From the NCBI RefSeq assembly GCF_900291975.1, contig NZ_OMPN01000001.1:1860001-1924000 (forward strand): a stretch of DNA of 64,000 nt. The letters run 5' to 3'. Numbering within the stretch: the first letter of the stretch is position 1; every line of letters begins with the position of its first letter. The notes below the pieces were generated by a model. It was not told the DNA's origin and made no database searches. It saw only the letters and a list, made by a program, of their open reading frames with translations. The stretch is from Agathobaculum massiliense (GTDB lineage Bacteria; Bacillota; Clostridia; Oscillospirales; Butyricicoccaceae). Made by a program: the position numbers and the translations under genes. This document shows, in pieces, positions 56,720-63,945 of this stretch.

Positions 56720-56986
56720 TTATTCGGCCGAAAGCACGAACGACGGGTTCTCTGCCGCCGCGTCCGCCAGGACGCGCAGCAGCAGTTCGCCGTAGTTCCC
56801 CATGTTGTCAACCAGCTTTTCCGCGTGCCGCAGCGTCAGCCGCGCGGGCGGGCAGGCGGTCAGCAGGTCGTAAAGCGCGTCCAGCGTGCGCCCGTAATCG
56901 GCCGGAAACCCGAACGCCTTTGCCAGCGCGTCATGCGCCTGCGCGCGCGTATACAGGGTTTCCGCATCCAGAAGCAGCTCCCTCAT
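56720..56986 (-). CDS. Barstar-family ribonuclease inhibitor
   Basis: The 88-residue protein has the barstar layout: an early helix (AHDALAKAFGFPADYGRTLD), ALYDLLT, and a final strand region. Barstar binds and blocks barnase-type RNases. No barnase gene is seen here. ATG 56986 is preferred over 56995 because GGGGGA is 9 bases away. It is the last gene of a three-gene unit with a lipopeptide and a membrane protein. Confidence 0.85.
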   Translation of the reverse strand: MRELLLDAETLYTRAQAHDALAKAFGFPADYGRTLDALYDLLTACPPARLTLRHAEKLVDNMGNYGELLLRVLADAAAENPSFVLSAE

Positions 56987-57052
56987 CTTGTCCATTCCCC
57001 CAAATATGAAAAATGCAGGCCCGTTCCGGAAACGGGACGTCCGGTTTTCAGC

Positions 57053-57196
57053 CTATTCCGCGCGCGGGCCGGAAACAATGATCTCCGTCGGGCCGTCTGC
57101 GCCGCCGATCACGCCGACCGAAACGGCCTGCGCGCAACCGGCCAGCAGCGCAGCCGTACCCAGCAGCGCCAGCAGGAGGCATACCGCCTTTTTCAT
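57053..57196 (-). CDS. 47-residue lipoprotein carrying an ADGPT motif
   Basis: The frame starts MKKAVCLLLALLGTAALLAG and has a lipobox cysteine at residue 21. The mature part is about 27 residues and contains VGVIGGADGPTEIIVSG. This copies the IGIIGAADGPTSILVS segment of sodium-pumping decarboxylase beta subunits such as the one at 62818-63945. AGAGAGGTG precedes ATG 57196, and it lies 15 bases after the upstream gene. It is too short to be a pump. The role is unknown. Confidence 0.85.
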   Translation of the reverse strand: MKKAVCLLLALLGTAALLAGCAQAVSVGVIGGADGPTEIIVSGPRAE

Positions 57197-57211
57197 TCCG
57201 CACCTCTCTTC

Positions 57212-57649
57212 CTATGTCGCGTTCGGATAGAACAGGATATACAGCTTGTGATAAAATTCCTGCCCGCGGCCCCCCTCGATGCCGCGCAGCTTGCCGTCTA
57301 CAAACACAAAGCCGTCCGCGTTGACGCTGATTGAGCTGCCGTTTTCAAAGGTGACGGTCAGGCGGTTGGCGGTCAGCTTATCATCGCCGGGCTGGAAAAA
57401 ATGCGGATAGGGCGTATAGGTGTAGCCGCCGAGCAGGTCGGTATAGGAAGCGATCTGTTTTTCATCCGTCACTGCGGGGAGCGAGGTGTCGTTTTCGCTC
57501 AGCATCAGCGACGCCTGCACGCCCTTGCCCGCGATATCGGTAAAGGACTGGTGATAAAATTTGATGTACAGCATGCGCCCCGCGATGAACAGGAGAATGA
57601 CCAGCAGGGTGCCGCAGAGCGCAAAACCAAGCGCTGTCGATTTACGCAT
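57212..57649 (-). CDS. 145-residue membrane-anchored protein of unknown function
   Basis: The protein has a short basic start, one membrane segment near residues 8-30, and an extracellular beta-rich domain (RLTVTFENGSSISVNADGFV). ATG 57649 follows AAGGAG by 8 bases. It is the first gene of the unit that also encodes the ADGPT lipopeptide and barstar. No known domain was recognised. Confidence 0.8.
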   Translation of the reverse strand: MRKSTALGFALCGTLLVILLFIAGRMLYIKFYHQSFTDIAGKGVQASLMLSENDTSLPAVTDEKQIASYTDLLGGYTYTPYPHFFQPGDDKLTANRLTVTFENGSSISVNADGFVFVDGKLRGIEGGRGQEFYHKLYILFYPNAT

Positions 57650-57705
57650 GATACTTGCTCCTTGATCCGTAAAAATATGGCTTTTGTCCATATCAGGACA
57701 CTATT

Positions 57706-57734
57706 AGCATACCGTAAAACCGGAGGGCTGTCAA
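57706..57734 (-). promoter_or_regulatory. Promoter of the membrane protein-lipopeptide-barstar unit
   Basis: TTGACA (57729-57734) and TATGCT (57706-57711) are 17 bases apart on the minus strand. Confidence 0.75.
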
Positions 57735-57761: not shown

Positions 57762-57821
57762 TTGACAGGAAAATTCTACTGATGTAGAATAAGGCTGGAA
57801 AAAGGTTTTACAACCGTAGAA
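57762..57821 (+). promoter_or_regulatory. BlaI-type promoter and operators
   Basis: TTGACA (57762-57767) and TAGAAT (57785-57790) are 17 bases apart. A perfect inverted repeat ATTCTAC-TGAT-GTAGAAT (57773-57790) covers the -10 box, and a second, imperfect copy (TTTTAC-AACC-GTAGAA) lies at 57806-57821. Both fit BlaI/MecI-type operators containing TAC...GTA. Confidence 0.85.
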
Positions 57822-57835
57822 AAAGGGGTGGGACT

Positions 57836-58207
57836 ATGGACGAAATCAAACGCCTGCCGGATGCGGAGCTGGAGGTCATGCAAACGATCTGGGCGCTTCA
57901 GCCGCCGGTGACCGCGGCCGAGGTGCAGCAGAACGCGCCCAAGGAGTGGAAGCCGACCAGCGTGCTGACCTTCCTCTCCCGACTGTGCGAAAAGGGCTTC
58001 CTGCGGTGCGAAAAGCAGGGGCGGCAGAACTATTATACGCCGCTCGTTCGGGAGGAGGCATACCTCCAGCGGGAGAGCCGCAGCTTTGTGCAGCGCCTGT
58101 GCGGCGGCTCGGTGAAAAATCTGGTGGCGAGCCTGTCGGACGCGGGCGCGCTGACCGAGCGGGATATCGACGAGCTGCGTGCCTTTCTGGACGCGCAGGG
58201 GCGGTAA
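57836..58207 (+). CDS. BlaI/MecI-family repressor
   Basis: The 123-residue protein has the family start (RLPDAELEVMQTIWAL), a winged helix (PTSVLTFLSRLCEKGFLRCE, GRQNYYTPLV) and a C-terminal dimer part. It should bind the two operators upstream and be inactivated by the M56 protease encoded 18 bases downstream. No beta-lactamase or penicillin-binding protein gene is next to it. Confidence 0.95.
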   Translation: MDEIKRLPDAELEVMQTIWALQPPVTAAEVQQNAPKEWKPTSVLTFLSRLCEKGFLRCEKQGRQNYYTPLVREEAYLQRESRSFVQRLCGGSVKNLVASLSDAGALTERDIDELRAFLDAQGR

Positions 58208-58225: not shown

Positions 58226-61200
58226 ATGGCACAGAATGAATTGCTGCTGGGGCTGGCGCAGGCCGGCCTGACGGTGTCGGCGGTCGCGCTCGCGCTGTTT
58301 TTGCTGCGCAGGACGCTGAAAAAACGCTATCCGGCGCGGGCGGTCTGCGTGATCTGGGCGCTGCTGGCGGTGCGGCTGCTCTTTCCGGTGCAGCTCACGC
58401 TGCCCGACCCGCCCATACAGCTCACGCCGCCCGAGAGGACGCTGTATGTGACCTATCATCAGGATGAGACGCAGGCGGCGGGTGCGGCGCAGGACGGTGT
58501 GGCGCAGCCCTCACTGCCGCGAGGCGCGTGGATGACCGAAAGCGAGTTTACGCAGAGCGTACAGGTGCAGGAGAACTGGAAAAGCGCCATTCATGTGGAC
58601 GGTGTGCTGGCGCTGGTCTGGCTGACCGGCGTGCTGTACAACGTGTTTTGGCAGGCGCGGGATTACCGCCGCTACATCCGGCGCCTGAAGGAAGCTTCCG
58701 CGGATGTGCAGAGCGAGGCGCTGCACGGCATTTTCGAGGAGCAGAAGCGCTCGCTCGGCATCCGCCGCGCCATTCCGCTGTGTGTGAGCGGTGCGGCGGA
58801 CTGTCCGATGCTCGCGGGATTTGCCGAGCCGGTGTTGTGGCTGCCGCAGGAAGACCTGTCCGAAGAGGACGCCATGTTCATCTTCCGGCATGAGCTGACG
58901 CATTATAAGCGTGGCGACCTGTGGCTCAAGCTGCTGCTGGTGGCGGCGCGGTCGGTACACTGGTTCAATCCGCTGGTGCGCCTGCTGACGCGCTTTGCAC
59001 AGGAGGATATCGAGCTGGCGTGCGACGACGCGGTGGTGCGCGGTATGGACGGGAGTCAGCGTCGCGCTTACGGGGAAACCATCCTGCGGTCCGCGCAGGC
59101 ACAGGCGCAGCGGCGGGCGCTGGTGTCGTGCTTCACGGGGGATAAGGAAACGCTCATGCGCCGCTTTGAAGGGCTGTTCGACAAGCGCGCGAAAAAGCGC
59201 GGCGCTGCGCTCATTGTGGCTGCGGCGGTGCTGGTCGCCTCGCTCGGCTGCGCGGTGTCGGTAGGAGAGAGTAAGGAAAAATTGACAGAGGAAACGCGGC
59301 TGGAGATTGCGGAATGGTGGGCAGCGCAGATACACGAGCATATCAACGGCGAAGCGGAGCTGCTTGCCAGCACAGCGGTGCTGCGCGGGGAGGAAACCTA
59401 TGCCGTAGCTGACCTGCTGCTGATAGAGGAACAGGGAAACATCCCCTATCGGGCGGTGCAGCAGTTGGATTTTCAACGCGATATGGACGGCAAATGGATG
59501 ATGAAAAGCGCAAAGCCGGTTGCACGGGATGGCGTGACCTCGCTGGAAGAATTCCGCATCCTGTACGAAAACGACCTCGGACTGCCGGAAAACACTGGGA
59601 CGGCATCGGACGACGCTGCGGAGCAGTGCAGAGAGATTTTGCGGCTGTCCGGCGGCAGCACGGAGGTCGTCCGCCGCTGGGACGTGACCAACGACGGTGA
59701 AAACGACCTGGCCGAGGTGCGGCATACCTTTGACAATGGCGAACAGCTCAGTATCATTATGGCGGCCGGTCAGCCGCAGGACTATACCTACGGCGGCGGG
59801 GAAAACGCCCGTACCGCCGCCGACCTCGCGCAGCAGTACGCGCGCGCGGTGGCATATAAGTCGGTGTGGCCGCTGTATCCGGTGCTGTCCGAACAGGAGC
59901 AGCAGGCGCTGGTGCGGCAGCAGCAGCACCTTGCCGGCAGCGAGGACGAAAACGCCGTATGGTATACCAAATACGGCGGCTCGTCGCCTTCCTACCGCAA
60001 TTATGTGATCGTACCGACCGAGGAGGCAAATACCTGTGTCGCGGTGTTCCAGATGTACGGCGGCGGCACGACCGATTACCGCTCCGCGATTGCAATTACC
60101 GCCGGTGAGGAAAACGGCCGCAGGGTCATTTCCAAAATGCAGCGGTGTGACGATCACCTGTCGTTCATACAGGATCAGCTGGCAGGACAGGACGCGGGCT
60201 ATACCATGCGTGAGATATTTGGCCTGTATTATGACTCAGGCCTGCCCTGGCCCGACCTGCAATACGGCAATACCGGGGAAACGGTAGTTAATGCCTCGTT
60301 TTATAATGGCGGCCCGATCACTGATCTGGAACAGCCGCTGACCGCAATCGAAAATATCTTCGGCTATTTCGGTGAAACATACGAAGAGATGGAAGGCAAC
60401 ACAACATACATCCGGATGCGGACATGGCTCACCGCCGAACTGGTTTCGCAGACGGATACCGAAGCCGTCGTGCGCCTGCACTTCATCGACGGCAGCCCGT
60501 CCGTTGACGTGCGCATGGAGAAGACCGAGGGTTATTGGCTGCCGGTCGGGCTGGCGGAACCGCTTGACGGGGGCTTTGCCGCCACGGGGGGCGGGGTAAG
60601 CCTGCCCGTGGGCGAGACCACCGAGCAGGCGGTGCGCAACGCCGCGGGCAGCATCCCGCTGCTGCGGGCAGGCGACACCATCGAGCTTTTGTTCGACCCC
60701 ACGCCGGCTGGCGAGGTCACGATTGCGGACGCGGTCGTCCGTGAGGACGGTGCGCGCCAGTACGACGAGCGGGTGACCGAAACGGACAGCTTTTCCTATA
60801 CGGGCGGTGCGGCCAGCATGTCGTACAGCTATCCCGTGGAACATATCACGGCGGAGGCGCTGTCCTCGACGCAGCCGGCTGATGTGTACCGCGGCGTGAC
60901 CGTGTCCTACACGGCGGCGGATGGAACGGCGCATACCGCCGCATTCGTATTCCGCATAGCGGGCGGCGCGGCGGAAGCCAGTCGCACAATCGACTCCACC
61001 GCTTATGTGAACGACGTCTACGGCTATACCCTCACCCTGCCGGCGTGCTTTGTCGGGCAGGGGTATGTAACCGAGAAGGATGGCTGCGCCATGTTCGGCC
61101 TGAAAAACGCGTGGCCGGAAGCGACCTCCGACCCGTATGGGGCGGGTACGGTGATGATGCTTGCCGTAGAAGCGACAGACTATCTGCAATCTACCTTTGG

Positions 61201-62527
61201 CGAGGACTGGCCGGTACCCAGCAAGACGCTGGCCGAGCGCGACGGGCTGACCTATTACCTGACGTTTGCGTCCGACGTGCAGTATGATACGCAGGACAGG
61301 GACATCGCGGCCGCGTATCAGGAGATGGATCAGGCCGCGTGGGCGCTGGACGGCGGCTCGCTTACCATCCATGCGCCGGACGAAGCCCAGCGGCGGGCGC
61401 GCATGGAAACCTATCTGAACGGTGTGGCGTTTCTGGATGGGCTTGCGCGCTATACGCGGGACTACGACAGCACGATCTGGACCGAGCGTGACACGGTCGG
61501 GATAGACGGCGGCAGCGCGACGGTGGCGTATGAGCTGTGGGACAGGCAGCACCGCCCATACCGCGCGGTGGAGGCGCTGGAGGCCTCCGACAAGGGCGGT
61601 TATCACCTGACCCGACAGGAGTGGTTGCTGGATGAAACCACGCCGACCGATTCGCTCGAACGCTTCCTGCTGCGGTACGACAACAGCGGGCTGGGCCTGC
61701 CGGAGTTCAGCGAAGCGCGGGTGCGCGCCCTGCTGGCGAACGCTTCGCTCACCGCCCTGCGCGATCCGGCGCGGGCGATGGAATGGACGCTCGGCCTGTC
61801 GGGCGGCACGGCGGGCGACCGCATTGTGCATCCGGTGAAGCAGGGCGAAAGCTGGGTCTATACCTTTGCGGACGGCGGTCAGGTGCGCGTCGGCATGAGG
61901 GCCGTGCGGCTGGGGGATGCGGTGCAGCCCATCTACCTGCCGGTCTGGTGGTCTTTGGACACGGCGGGCGGCTCGGGTTGGGAATTCGACCCGTACAGCT
62001 ACATGATGCGCAAGGAAACAAACGATTTTTCCGGCTGCACCGTGGAGGAGCTGGCGTATTACCTTAGCCTGTCGGACGGCGCATATGCCGAGAATATCCT
62101 GCATGAACTGGACCTGCAGTGGCGCTGGTCGCCGCAGGAGGTGGAAAACGCGGTTGCGGGCAACGATATCGCGCGCGCGGCCTGGGAACGGCACCGCGGC
62201 AGCTTTGAAGCGCGGTTCCCGCCGGATGAGATTGAGGCCGCGTACCAGGCCGTGCGCGATTACACGGCGGCAAATGGGTTTTCGGTCGAAAACCTGCGCT
62301 ATGATCCGGCCAGCGAGCGTGCATGGTCGGAAAACATTATGGAAAGCGGCGTGCTGCGGGACAACGTGCAGGAGGACGGCCTGACGATCGACAATGTAAT
62401 TACCGTCATAGGCGACGCGCGCTTCGGCGAAGGCGCATGGCGCGACAAGGCCGACGGTTACTCGTTCACCCTGTACCGCGGCGCAGACGGCAAGTGGGTG
62501 CAGGAGGATGGTGCCTTTGGCTACTGA
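58226..62527 (+). CDS. Giant BlaR1/MecR1-like M56 sensor protease with 1,080-residue extracellular region
   Basis: The 1433-residue protein has N-terminal membrane segments (about residues 5-28, 38-58, 125-145), the M56 zinc protease site HELTH at residues 222-226 with EDIELACDD as third ligand region, and a last membrane segment near 328-348. The rest, over 1,000 residues, lies outside the cell and has several beta-rich modules (for example around 530-650, 965-1075 and 1350-1433) rather than the penicillin-binding domain of BlaR1. It likely senses an envelope signal and controls BlaI. Confidence 0.9.
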   Translation: MAQNELLLGLAQAGLTVSAVALALFLLRRTLKKRYPARAVCVIWALLAVRLLFPVQLTLPDPPIQLTPPERTLYVTYHQDETQAAGAAQDGVAQPSLPRGAWMTESEFTQSVQVQENWKSAIHVDGVLALVWLTGVLYNVFWQARDYRRYIRRLKEASADVQSEALHGIFEEQKRSLGIRRAIPLCVSGAADCPMLAGFAEPVLWLPQEDLSEEDAMFIFRHELTHYKRGDLWLKLLLVAARSVHWFNPLVRLLTRFAQEDIELACDDAVVRGMDGSQRRAYGETILRSAQAQAQRRALVSCFTGDKETLMRRFEGLFDKRAKKRGAALIVAAAVLVASLGCAVSVGESKEKLTEETRLEIAEWWAAQIHEHINGEAELLASTAVLRGEETYAVADLLLIEEQGNIPYRAVQQLDFQRDMDGKWMMKSAKPVARDGVTSLEEFRILYENDLGLPENTGTASDDAAEQCREILRLSGGSTEVVRRWDVTNDGENDLAEVRHTFDNGEQLSIIMAAGQPQDYTYGGGENARTAADLAQQYARAVAYKSVWPLYPVLSEQEQQALVRQQQHLAGSEDENAVWYTKYGGSSPSYRNYVIVPTEEANTCVAVFQMYGGGTTDYRSAIAITAGEENGRRVISKMQRCDDHLSFIQDQLAGQDAGYTMREIFGLYYDSGLPWPDLQYGNTGETVVNASFYNGGPITDLEQPLTAIENIFGYFGETYEEMEGNTTYIRMRTWLTAELVSQTDTEAVVRLHFIDGSPSVDVRMEKTEGYWLPVGLAEPLDGGFAATGGGVSLPVGETTEQAVRNAAGSIPLLRAGDTIELLFDPTPAGEVTIADAVVREDGARQYDERVTETDSFSYTGGAASMSYSYPVEHITAEALSSTQPADVYRGVTVSYTAADGTAHTAAFVFRIAGGAAEASRTIDSTAYVNDVYGYTLTLPACFVGQGYVTEKDGCAMFGLKNAWPEATSDPYGAGTVMMLAVEATDYLQSTFGEDWPVPSKTLAERDGLTYYLTFASDVQYDTQDRDIAAAYQEMDQAAWALDGGSLTIHAPDEAQRRARMETYLNGVAFLDGLARYTRDYDSTIWTERDTVGIDGGSATVAYELWDRQHRPYRAVEALEASDKGGYHLTRQEWLLDETTPTDSLERFLLRYDNSGLGLPEFSEARVRALLANASLTALRDPARAMEWTLGLSGGTAGDRIVHPVKQGESWVYTFADGGQVRVGMRAVRLGDAVQPIYLPVWWSLDTAGGSGWEFDPYSYMMRKETNDFSGCTVEELAYYLSLSDGAYAENILHELDLQWRWSPQEVENAVAGNDIARAAWERHRGSFEARFPPDEIEAAYQAVRDYTAANGFSVENLRYDPASERAWSENIMESGVLRDNVQEDGLTIDNVITVIGDARFGEGAWRDKADGYSFTLYRGADGKWVQEDGAFGY

Positions 62528-62740: not shown

Positions 62741-62817
62741 CCCAGAGGCATCCCAGGTCCGGAAAGCGGCGTCTGGAATGGAGATTCTGCCATATATTAT
62801 GTATAGGGGGCGGTAAC

Positions 62818-63945
62818 GTGGAATTTTTGTATGAGGGCCTGCTTTCGATCACTTGGCAGCAGGTGGTGATGTACTGCGTCGGTGGGTTCCTGATCTGGCT
62901 GGCGATCGAAAAACAGTATGAGCCGTCGCTGTTGCTGCCCATGGGCTTCGGCGCGATCCTGGTCAACCTGCCGCTTTCCGGCGTGATCGACCAGATGACG
63001 CAAGGCGTGGGCGAGACAAACGGCATTATTCAATGGCTGTTTGAAGCCGGCATCGAGGCGAGCGAGGCGTTCCCGCTGCTGCTGTTCATCGGCATCGGCG
63101 CGATGATCGACTTCGGCCCGCTGTTGGCAAACCCCAAGCTGTTCCTGTTCGGCGCGGCGGCGCAGGTCGGCATTTTCCTGACCATCATCGCGGCCGCGCT
63201 GCTGGGCTTCGACATCATCGACGCGGCCTCCATTGGTATCATCGGCGCGGCGGACGGGCCGACCTCGATCCTGGTGTCGCAGGTGCTCGGCTCGCGCTAT
63301 GTCGGCGCGATTGCGGTTGCGGCGTACAGCTATATGGCGCTGGTGCCGATCATCCAGCCGTTTGCGATCAAGCTGGTGACGACAAAGAGGGAACGCGCGA
63401 TGAAAATGCCTTACGCGGCCGGTCAGGTCAGCCGCCGCACGCGCATCCTGTTCCCGATTGTGGTGTCGATCGTCGCCGGACTGGTCGCGCCCGCGTCCGT
63501 GTCGCTGGTGGGCTTTTTGATGTTCGGCAACCTGATCCGCGAGTGCGGCGTGCTGGAGAGCCTGTCCAAAACCGCGCAGCATGAGCTGGCCAACCTGATT
63601 ACCCTGCTGCTGGGCATTACAATCTCGTTCTCCATGCGCGCGGCGCAGTTTGTGACAAAAGAAACGCTGCTCATCCTGTGTCTGGGGCTGATCGCGTTCG
63701 TGCTGGATTCAATCGGCGGCGTGCTGTTTGCCAAGGTACTCAACCTGTTCTGCAAAAACAAGGTCAACCCCATGATCGGCGCGGCAGGCATATCGGCCTT
63801 CCCCATGTCCGCGCGCGTGATCGAGAAGCTCGGCATGCAGGCCGACTGCACCAACCACCTGCTGATGCACGCGGTGGGCGCGAACGTCGCGGGTCAGATC
63901 GCCTCGGTCGTGGCCGGCGGCGTGATCCTTGGATTTTTCATGTGA
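62818..63945 (+). CDS. Sodium-pumping decarboxylase beta subunit (OadB/GcdB/MmdB family)
   Basis: The 375-residue membrane protein begins with GTG 62818 after AGGGGGCGG. It has the Na+-site motif IGIIGAADGPTSILVSQ near residue 140 with the key Asp, and FGNLIRECGV near residue 237. The family couples biotin-dependent decarboxylation of oxaloacetate, glutaconyl-CoA or methylmalonyl-CoA to Na+ export. The other subunits are not in the window, so the acid cannot be named. The upstream frame from 62713 runs through the leader and is not used. Confidence 0.95.
   Translation: MEFLYEGLLSITWQQVVMYCVGGFLIWLAIEKQYEPSLLLPMGFGAILVNLPLSGVIDQMTQGVGETNGIIQWLFEAGIEASEAFPLLLFIGIGAMIDFGPLLANPKLFLFGAAAQVGIFLTIIAAALLGFDIIDAASIGIIGAADGPTSILVSQVLGSRYVGAIAVAAYSYMALVPIIQPFAIKLVTTKRERAMKMPYAAGQVSRRTRILFPIVVSIVAGLVAPASVSLVGFLMFGNLIRECGVLESLSKTAQHELANLITLLLGITISFSMRAAQFVTKETLLILCLGLIAFVLDSIGGVLFAKVLNLFCKNKVNPMIGAAGISAFPMSARVIEKLGMQADCTNHLLMHAVGANVAGQIASVVAGGVILGFFM

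Follow-up and report, generated by a model that had tools for sequence, protein, structure and literature searches.

A short lipoprotein frame in Agathobaculum massiliense, very probably the remnant of a lipid-anchored barnase, carries a peptide tag shared with OadB

The window analysed here, a stretch of 64,000 nucleotides from Agathobaculum massiliense, contains an open reading frame of 47 codons (57196-57053, minus strand) whose product, MKKAVCLLLALLGTAALLAGCAQAVSVGVIGGADGPTEIIVSGPRAE, joins the features of a lipoprotein to a stretch almost identical to the Na+ site of OadB, the beta subunit of decarboxylase pumps. How does so small a protein come to carry part of an ion transporter, and is it a gene in its own right, the remainder of a longer one, or one instance of a motif used more widely?

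The 47-residue frame and its neighbours

An initial annotation of this DNA had described the frame as a lipoprotein gene with a signal peptide, a lipobox and a ribosome site, and by sequence pattern all of these are real (Table 1). The product, hereafter the stub, is accordingly a predicted lipoprotein, with lipidation and membrane location both predicted from the signal peptide and lipobox. The near-match of its core to the Na+-site helix of OadB was also described correctly: the stub matches the Pfam family OAD_beta (PF03977) with E = 3.1e-6 and 26.9 bits, under the gathering cut-off of 31.6, and covers only positions 96-130 of the 349-position profile; the NCBIfam model TIGR01109 gives E = 6.2e-5, and the sole PDB match at E <= 1 is to residues 190-214 of OadB (6iva_A, E = 0.0068). 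Residue frequencies predict 0.05 occurrences of IGGADGPT over all six reading frames of 87 genomes, with each genome counted as 2.2 Mb, and the likeness of the stub to OadB is, judged from these sequence matches, not due to chance. According to PMC7274780, Asp203 of OadB lies at the tip of a re-entrant helical hairpin, H1, and the D203A substitution abolishes Na+ binding; two residues from other parts of the protein matter as well, since Ser382 is required for sodium binding and the N412A mutant is impaired in it. The stub has the H1-tip GGADGPT with the Asp203 equivalent; Ser382, Asn412 and the second inverted repeat of OadB have no counterpart in its 47 residues. It is reasonable to hold, as had been claimed, that ion pumping is impossible for such a short piece.

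The window carries an OadB gene of its own, placed 5.7 kb away in the initial annotation; the gene start is in fact 5.6 kb off and the two motif copies are 6.1 kb apart. The variant H1 tip of this OadB, IGAADGPT, is also found in its orthologues (L016, L018, L019, L020 and L022), and the second OadB of the same genome (G000:C2:930 kb) reads IGGADGPT.

The stub lies 15 bp downstream of a gene for a 159-residue membrane protein, for which there was no NCBIfam match and no Pfam match above its cut-off, and barstar follows 57 bp further on. Since 18 of the 21 relatives of the membrane protein align only from residue 9-15 onward, its gene may start at 57649 instead. The order of the genes agrees with the proposal that all three share one transcript; a single transcript is nevertheless uncertain, because a hairpin with a T-rich tail separates the stub from barstar, although terminator-like sites are no more frequent in the stretch scanned than chance allows (two found, 2.1 expected). 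Promoter-like sites number three against 0.6 expected, one of them before the cassette. Between the cassette and the divergent BlaI gene lie two dyads that resemble the operator form of BlaI; the TACnnnnGTA-like pattern is not above chance across the window. As candidate BlaI operators, the dyads could couple the barstar cassette to BlaR1 signalling. No exact copy of the stretch shared with OadB (hereafter the tag) was found in the BlaR1-type protein of the window; elsewhere, a BlaR1-type M56 peptidase (L351:1497-4139, minus strand) has one between hydrophobic segments. A search of the locus with Rfam gave nothing at gathering thresholds.

Table 1. Features of the locus, in window coordinates
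Feature	Position	Strand	Basis or remark
Barstar, kept without barnase at the locus	56720..56995	-	PF01337, E=4.4e-16; orthologues 66-92% identical, same place
Hairpin with T-rich tail between stub and barstar	57020..57036	-	Not above chance for the stretch
47-residue lipoprotein stub	57053..57196	-	Very probably the N-terminal part of a barnase lipoprotein; RNase domain missing
Tag SVGVIGGADGPTEIIVSG, matching the OadB hairpin H1 tip	57068..57121	-	Asp34 aligns with Asp203 of 6iva_A
Predicted signal peptide and lipobox LAGC (residues 18-21; Cys21 = 57136-57134)	57134..57196	-	Sequence pattern only
Ribosome-binding-like GAGAGG	57203..57208	-	Sequence
Membrane protein, 159 aa, family unknown, first cassette gene	57212..57691	-	Present in 21 other same-genus loci
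Promoter-like TTGACA-17-TATGCT before the cassette	57706..57734	-	10/12 matches
Two dyads, CTACTGATGTAG (57776-57787) and TTACAACCGTAG (57808-57819)	57776..57819		Candidate BlaI operators between divergent units
BlaI/MecI-type repressor	57836..58207	+	PF03965, E=1.3e-33
BlaR1-type M56 membrane peptidase, 1433 aa, very long C-terminal part	58226..62527	+	PF05569, E=2.7e-47
OadB-type decarboxylase beta subunit	62797..63945	+	PF03977, E=1.9e-148
OadB H1 tip IGIIGAADGPTSILVSQ, reads IGAADGPT	63229-63279	+	Peptide search

The same slot in related genomes

The slot was viewed in 22 of 25 genomes of the genus (G000-G024, leaving out G007, G013 and G016); for lipoprotein and barstar it is informative in 20, G019 having neither and G017 meeting a contig end. 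The cassette of membrane protein, lipoprotein and barstar is conserved in the genus, and the check on neighbours that had been proposed shows the lipoprotein slot kept between the same two genes; the cassette is divergent from a BlaI gene in 18 of the 22 loci (this was not seen in L240, L364, L366 and L373). In ten of the 20 informative genomes the slot is occupied by a complete lipoprotein that includes a barnase domain, identified in L235 as Ribonuclease (PF00545, E = 3.4e-20), with 110 bits to the PDB barnase 1a2p. Seven of these ten carry the tag behind the lipobox, four with the exact core (G004, G009, G020, G022) and three with an altered one (GGEDGPT in G008, GDADGPT in G010, GSADGPT in G012); the other three lack it (G002, and G011 and G024, which are identical). 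A stub is found in two genomes, that of the window (G000, 47 residues) and G021 (44 residues), and both keep barstar; the Pfam search found no PF00545 catalytic domain in the stub. In the remaining eight (G001, G003, G005, G006, G014, G015, G018, G023) the lipoprotein is absent and barstar is kept; an orphan barstar stands directly behind the membrane protein in L361, L362, L363, L365, L367, L368, L369 and L371.

Because the full barnase, the stub, and the loss of the lipoprotein with barstar retained form a series at one syntenic place, the 47-residue frame is very probably the N-terminal remnant of a lipid-anchored barnase. A short homologous lipoprotein, whose absence elsewhere had been named as an argument against the frame, does exist in the 44-residue version of G021; by origin, nevertheless, this is not a purpose-made peptide gene, given the full barnase lipoprotein in half of the informative genomes. 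In a locus tree that is in effect unrooted (the outgroups do not fall together) and is without support values, G000 and G021 are not sisters, so that the two stubs may have arisen independently; the eight deletion genomes cluster with G019.

By analogy with the known families, the RNase of the relatives would be exported by means of its lipoprotein signal and anchored on the outside of the membrane, and cytosolic barstar would protect the producer. In the window genome the RNase domain is gone from the locus, and barstar would survive there as an orphan immunity gene. The locus illustrates how a secreted RNase can disappear while its immunity gene stays, and it cautions that even a conspicuous micro-protein may be the stump of a longer gene; among the entries listed in literature searches for orphan immunity of the barnase/barstar type, nothing was on point.

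The stub could be simple debris, a frame without a role from which the RNase domain was deleted and in which the tag is inherited from the full lipoprotein, and we give this close to, though somewhat under, an even chance. The eight genomes of the same genus without any lipoprotein at the slot agree with it, as does an out-of-frame C-terminal barnase remnant behind the G021 stub (L237:8400-8660), which aligns with barnase residues 146-199 (E = 2.75e-5, that stretch being searched alone); the same search of the window locus showed no such remnant behind its stub. The residues that follow the tag are also unalike in the two stubs (GPRAE and RAGGQA). Decay sits less well with the start, signal peptide, lipobox and intact tag that both stubs retain, or with VGVIGGADGPT, in which five of the 11 codons differ between the stubs, all synonymously, although these changes may predate the truncation. 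It must also be set against proteins of other genomes, about 47-61 residues long (L490-L493), that consist of a tag and one hydrophobic segment; some tiny proteins amount to scarcely more than these two parts and a basic tail, the shortest having 47 residues (L491). In the case of the stub, no functional account does better than simple decay.

Spread, position and conservation of the tag

The reuse of an OadB motif, one of the possibilities raised at the outset, is borne out, and on a wider scale than could be seen from this DNA alone. The tag, of about 18 residues, has a consensus of approximately S[IV]G[IV]IGGADGPT[AS][IV]x[VIT][ST]G. At E <= 0.1 the tag peptide was found in 86 of 87 genomes of the family and the reversed peptide in none of the 87; many of the matches are OadB, and a tag outside OadB occurs in at least 40 of the 87. 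In total, 301 distinct tagged frames were gathered, 192 OadB and 109 others; when the latter were clustered by host sequence, leaving the masked tag out of account, they fell into 46 groups. The clusters are not proven families: blastp may split a family of small proteins, and a few frames are cut by contig ends. A stricter pattern gives 88 non-OadB frames in 39 clusters; each of the two patterns was designed to let through altered cores that had been met before, and one tagged frame, L109, is probably a chance match. Ten unrelated Pfam kinds of host score above cut-off: CDP-alcohol phosphatidyltransferase (PgsA type, the tag separating the final two hydrophobic segments), Glycos_transf_4 (MraY type, with the tag in a loop), Cu_amine_oxidN1, SH3_6 with NLPC_P60, Ribonuclease, HAAS, HTH_3, Peptidase_M56, Big_14 and Rhodanese. 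Masking the tag removed the OAD_beta match in all four hosts tested; thus, the tag is not part of a larger OadB fragment. Some small carriers pass the OAD_beta cut-off (L413, 41.8 bits against 31.6) and therefore risk annotation as decarboxylase subunits.

Several arrangements of the tag are seen. It stands beside a hydrophobic segment and a basic tail in L228, L268, L381, L423 and L491. A DUF6449 membrane protein (L217, above cut-off) is followed by a separate tagged protein of 65-74 residues, and the same order is found in L051, L216 and L221, all four from one genus; in L228 (G072), a DUF6449-like protein (22.1 bits, cut-off 23.5) ends in a fused tag and hydrophobic segment. In L505 (G188), an Ig-like lipoprotein is untagged and another lipoprotein (a 240-codon frame) has the tag right behind its lipobox. 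Cytosolic-looking proteins of 221-245 residues carry the tag near the N-terminus (L127, L132, L420), two of them on contigs filed as viral.

Among the matches listed in a scan of named records, which held at least 118 stretches, 17 non-OadB carriers were picked by eye, leaving out L346, L256 (cut) and three unplaced records. All 17 are Bacillota (16 Clostridia, one Tissierellia), whereas 52 of the 98 placed OadB or other records among these matches belong to other phyla (Fisher p = 1.9e-5, a value that rests on the by-eye pick). Contigs filed as viral gave at least 120 GGADGPT stretches, with the extended tag in at least seven loci and at least five distinct proteins (L078, L108, L127 = L146, L132 = L142, L154); the other 113 GGADGPT matches among those listed have unlike contexts and were taken as chance. 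A 22-residue peptide query of phage and plasmid collections, which has little power at that length, gave no match.

By hydropathy only, 71 of 88 tags either follow a lipobox or are no more than 30 residues away from a hydrophobic segment; in proteins of at least 150 residues, 40 of 56 tags are near a membrane anchor, compared with 31% for random positions in the same proteins. The exceptions are two cytosolic-looking host types (10 of the 88 proteins) and some secreted proteins. By the known topology of PgsA and MraY, the tagged loops of these proteins would face outward. AlphaFold2 places the tag of L212 in a disordered loop (pLDDT about 30) and that of L413, a small host with two helices, in a weak beta-hairpin between them (pLDDT 50-56). 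A PDB search for the fold of the cytosolic-looking host gave nothing at E <= 0.001.

Codons vary much more than the peptide does: at the DNA level, 82 exact cores comprise 73 different 21-mers, and the 12 of 62 tags that could be compared resemble the OadB of their own genome (0.72) hardly more than that of others (0.69). Thus, the tag is not a DNA element conserved as such, and recent copying from the genome's own OadB is unsupported by these 12 comparisons. Conservation extends to the flanks, with S at -5 in 48 of 88 tags, G at -3 in 71, I or V at +8 in 85 and S or T at +11 in 66, although both the search peptide and the DNA pattern used in the named scan bias the frequencies towards these residues. 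The core Asp is present in 88 of 88, a residue that the search pattern required. More generally, conservation in hosts found through the tag, including six families, is partly circular, and an unbiased test was made with host queries lacking the tag. In the cytosolic-looking family (25-64% identity to the query), four of seven members have the exact tag and three an altered one (GGAHGPT, GGADGPV and, behind an intact IGIIGG, the badly altered GGGHGLF), the Asp being lost in two of the seven. Among 22 Ig-like lipoproteins, two with broken reading frames, eight have the tag (six exact, two GGSDGPT) and 14 have other linkers. For PgsA, 30 proteins were inspected out of 82 genomes with a match, using a query from a tagged species that leans to its relatives; seven are exact, four altered and 19 without the tag. 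Butyricicoccus pullicaecorum is one species with a tagged PgsA (L303). The absence or alteration of the tag in these three families makes it dispensable in many hosts. On such comparisons it is a modular element that hosts gain and lose, and that some of them retain more firmly than the rest.

Its patchy presence and altered forms, and the mix of loops, linkers and termini in which it resides, would also suit a selfish or neutral coding insert that such segments tolerate, of the kind known from Rickettsia. We consider this unlikely. The DNA identity expected of such an insert is lacking, and the tag is still recognisable in all seven members of the cytosolic-looking family despite their divergence. 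Moreover, the shortest of the 109 non-OadB tagged frames has 48 codons and no plainly noncoding copy was seen among them, although a peptide search favours open frames.

What the tag may do

We give about an even chance to the view that Clostridia use the tag as a portable linear recognition motif, which selection maintains at the level of the peptide. It would have originated as a copy of the OadB H1 tip, would occupy flexible segments, for the most part just after a lipobox or no further than 30 residues from a hydrophobic segment, and would be bound by a shared factor. Such a factor might be a docking partner at the surface or one that handles OadB H1 while membranes are being assembled; the tag may still be displayed by the stub. 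Taken together, a barnase remnant bearing a recognition motif is the joint explanation that we favour by a modest degree. No reader protein was found among the neighbours of 32 tagged loci, where neighbours are common only to loci of the same host type, and the same holds for a set of 18 tagged loci; the exceptions are an ABC ATPase near L214 and L417 and, in L423, a neighbour with a rhodanese domain. Because two host types look cytosolic (10 of 88), no single surface mechanism fits. A bolder form of the idea, a general Clostridia protein tag derived from the OadB Na+-site hairpin, spread over dozens of unlike proteins and served by a dedicated reader on both sides of the membrane, is tentative, and we lean against it. 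If true, its hosts would be lipid and wall enzymes, sensors, transport-linked proteins, secreted RNases and tag-only mini-proteins.

The tag might instead keep its role from OadB, dipping into the outer leaflet as the tip of a re-entrant hairpin and binding Na+, or serve as an H1 mimic that pairs with OadB and modulates a membrane complex. The mostly juxtamembrane tags are compatible with this, as is a gamma-like decarboxylase subunit (L346:3960-4319, plus strand; OAD_gamma E = 0.0026, under cut-off) that has the tag at its N-terminus and adjoins two OadB-type genes. The invariant Asp would count as well, but it was demanded by the pattern and is lost in two of the seven copies found with tag-free queries, and for this reason we rate the idea lower, as quite improbable. 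Excerpts from PMC7274780 place Ser382 and Asn412, from other parts of OadB, in its Na+ binding, and the modelled beta-hairpin is weak and not helical. Cytosolic-looking hosts exist, and G069, a 97% complete draft, has a tagged protein and no OAD_beta match, which speaks against mechanisms that need OadB.

An exported signal, in which the mature lipopeptide or a fragment of the signal peptide is released and sensed, would suit a stub that is small and looks exported, and lipoprotein signal peptides are known to give rise to pheromones in enterococci. In this case, however, the conserved part lies after the Cys, the tag is also found in PgsA- and MraY-type proteins, whose internal loops are unlikely to release it, and no receptor-like neighbour stood out at the 32 tagged loci; we hold this account to be very improbable. 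For the stub alone, the roles proposed in the initial annotation, an exported signal or a modulator of a complex, could apply.

In literature searches whose scope left out most subscription papers, GGADGPT, ADGPT with decarboxylase, and IIGGADGP, GAADGPT or ADGPTAI were not found, and those on small OAD proteins and on truncated OadB with lipoproteins in Clostridia gave nothing on point among the entries listed. The Na+-site sequence of one transporter family recurs as a module across many unlike proteins in Clostridia of the gut and elsewhere.

Several known systems invite comparison. With OadB the stub shares a near-identical 18-residue stretch in which its Asp34 corresponds to Asp203; the rest of OadB is missing from it, and the four masked hosts have no OAD_beta match. 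As in barnase (PF00545) and barstar (PF01337), the orthologous lipoproteins carry a barnase domain next to barstar, but these relatives are predicted to be lipid-anchored, seven of ten are tagged, and the window has no RNase domain. The palindromic elements of Rickettsia are in-frame peptide inserts in unlike proteins; the tag is likewise an in-frame peptide insert, but without a conserved DNA sequence (73 21-mers among 82). LPXTG and PEP-CTERM are portable sorting tags, short sequences on unlike proteins. The tag resembles them in being short, in the diversity of its hosts and in often standing beside a hydrophobic segment and basic tail, and differs in that it is not bound to the C-terminus and no processing enzyme was found for it. 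In the effector prodomains APD1 and APD2 of Amoebophilus, as described in excerpts from PMC3482391, a conserved stretch lies right behind the lipobox and precedes unlike C-terminal domains. The tag has this same arrangement in lipoproteins; in contrast to what those excerpts describe, it spans only about 18 residues, matches an ion pump, and has further sites within loops, ahead of hydrophobic segments at the C-terminus and in proteins that look cytosolic.
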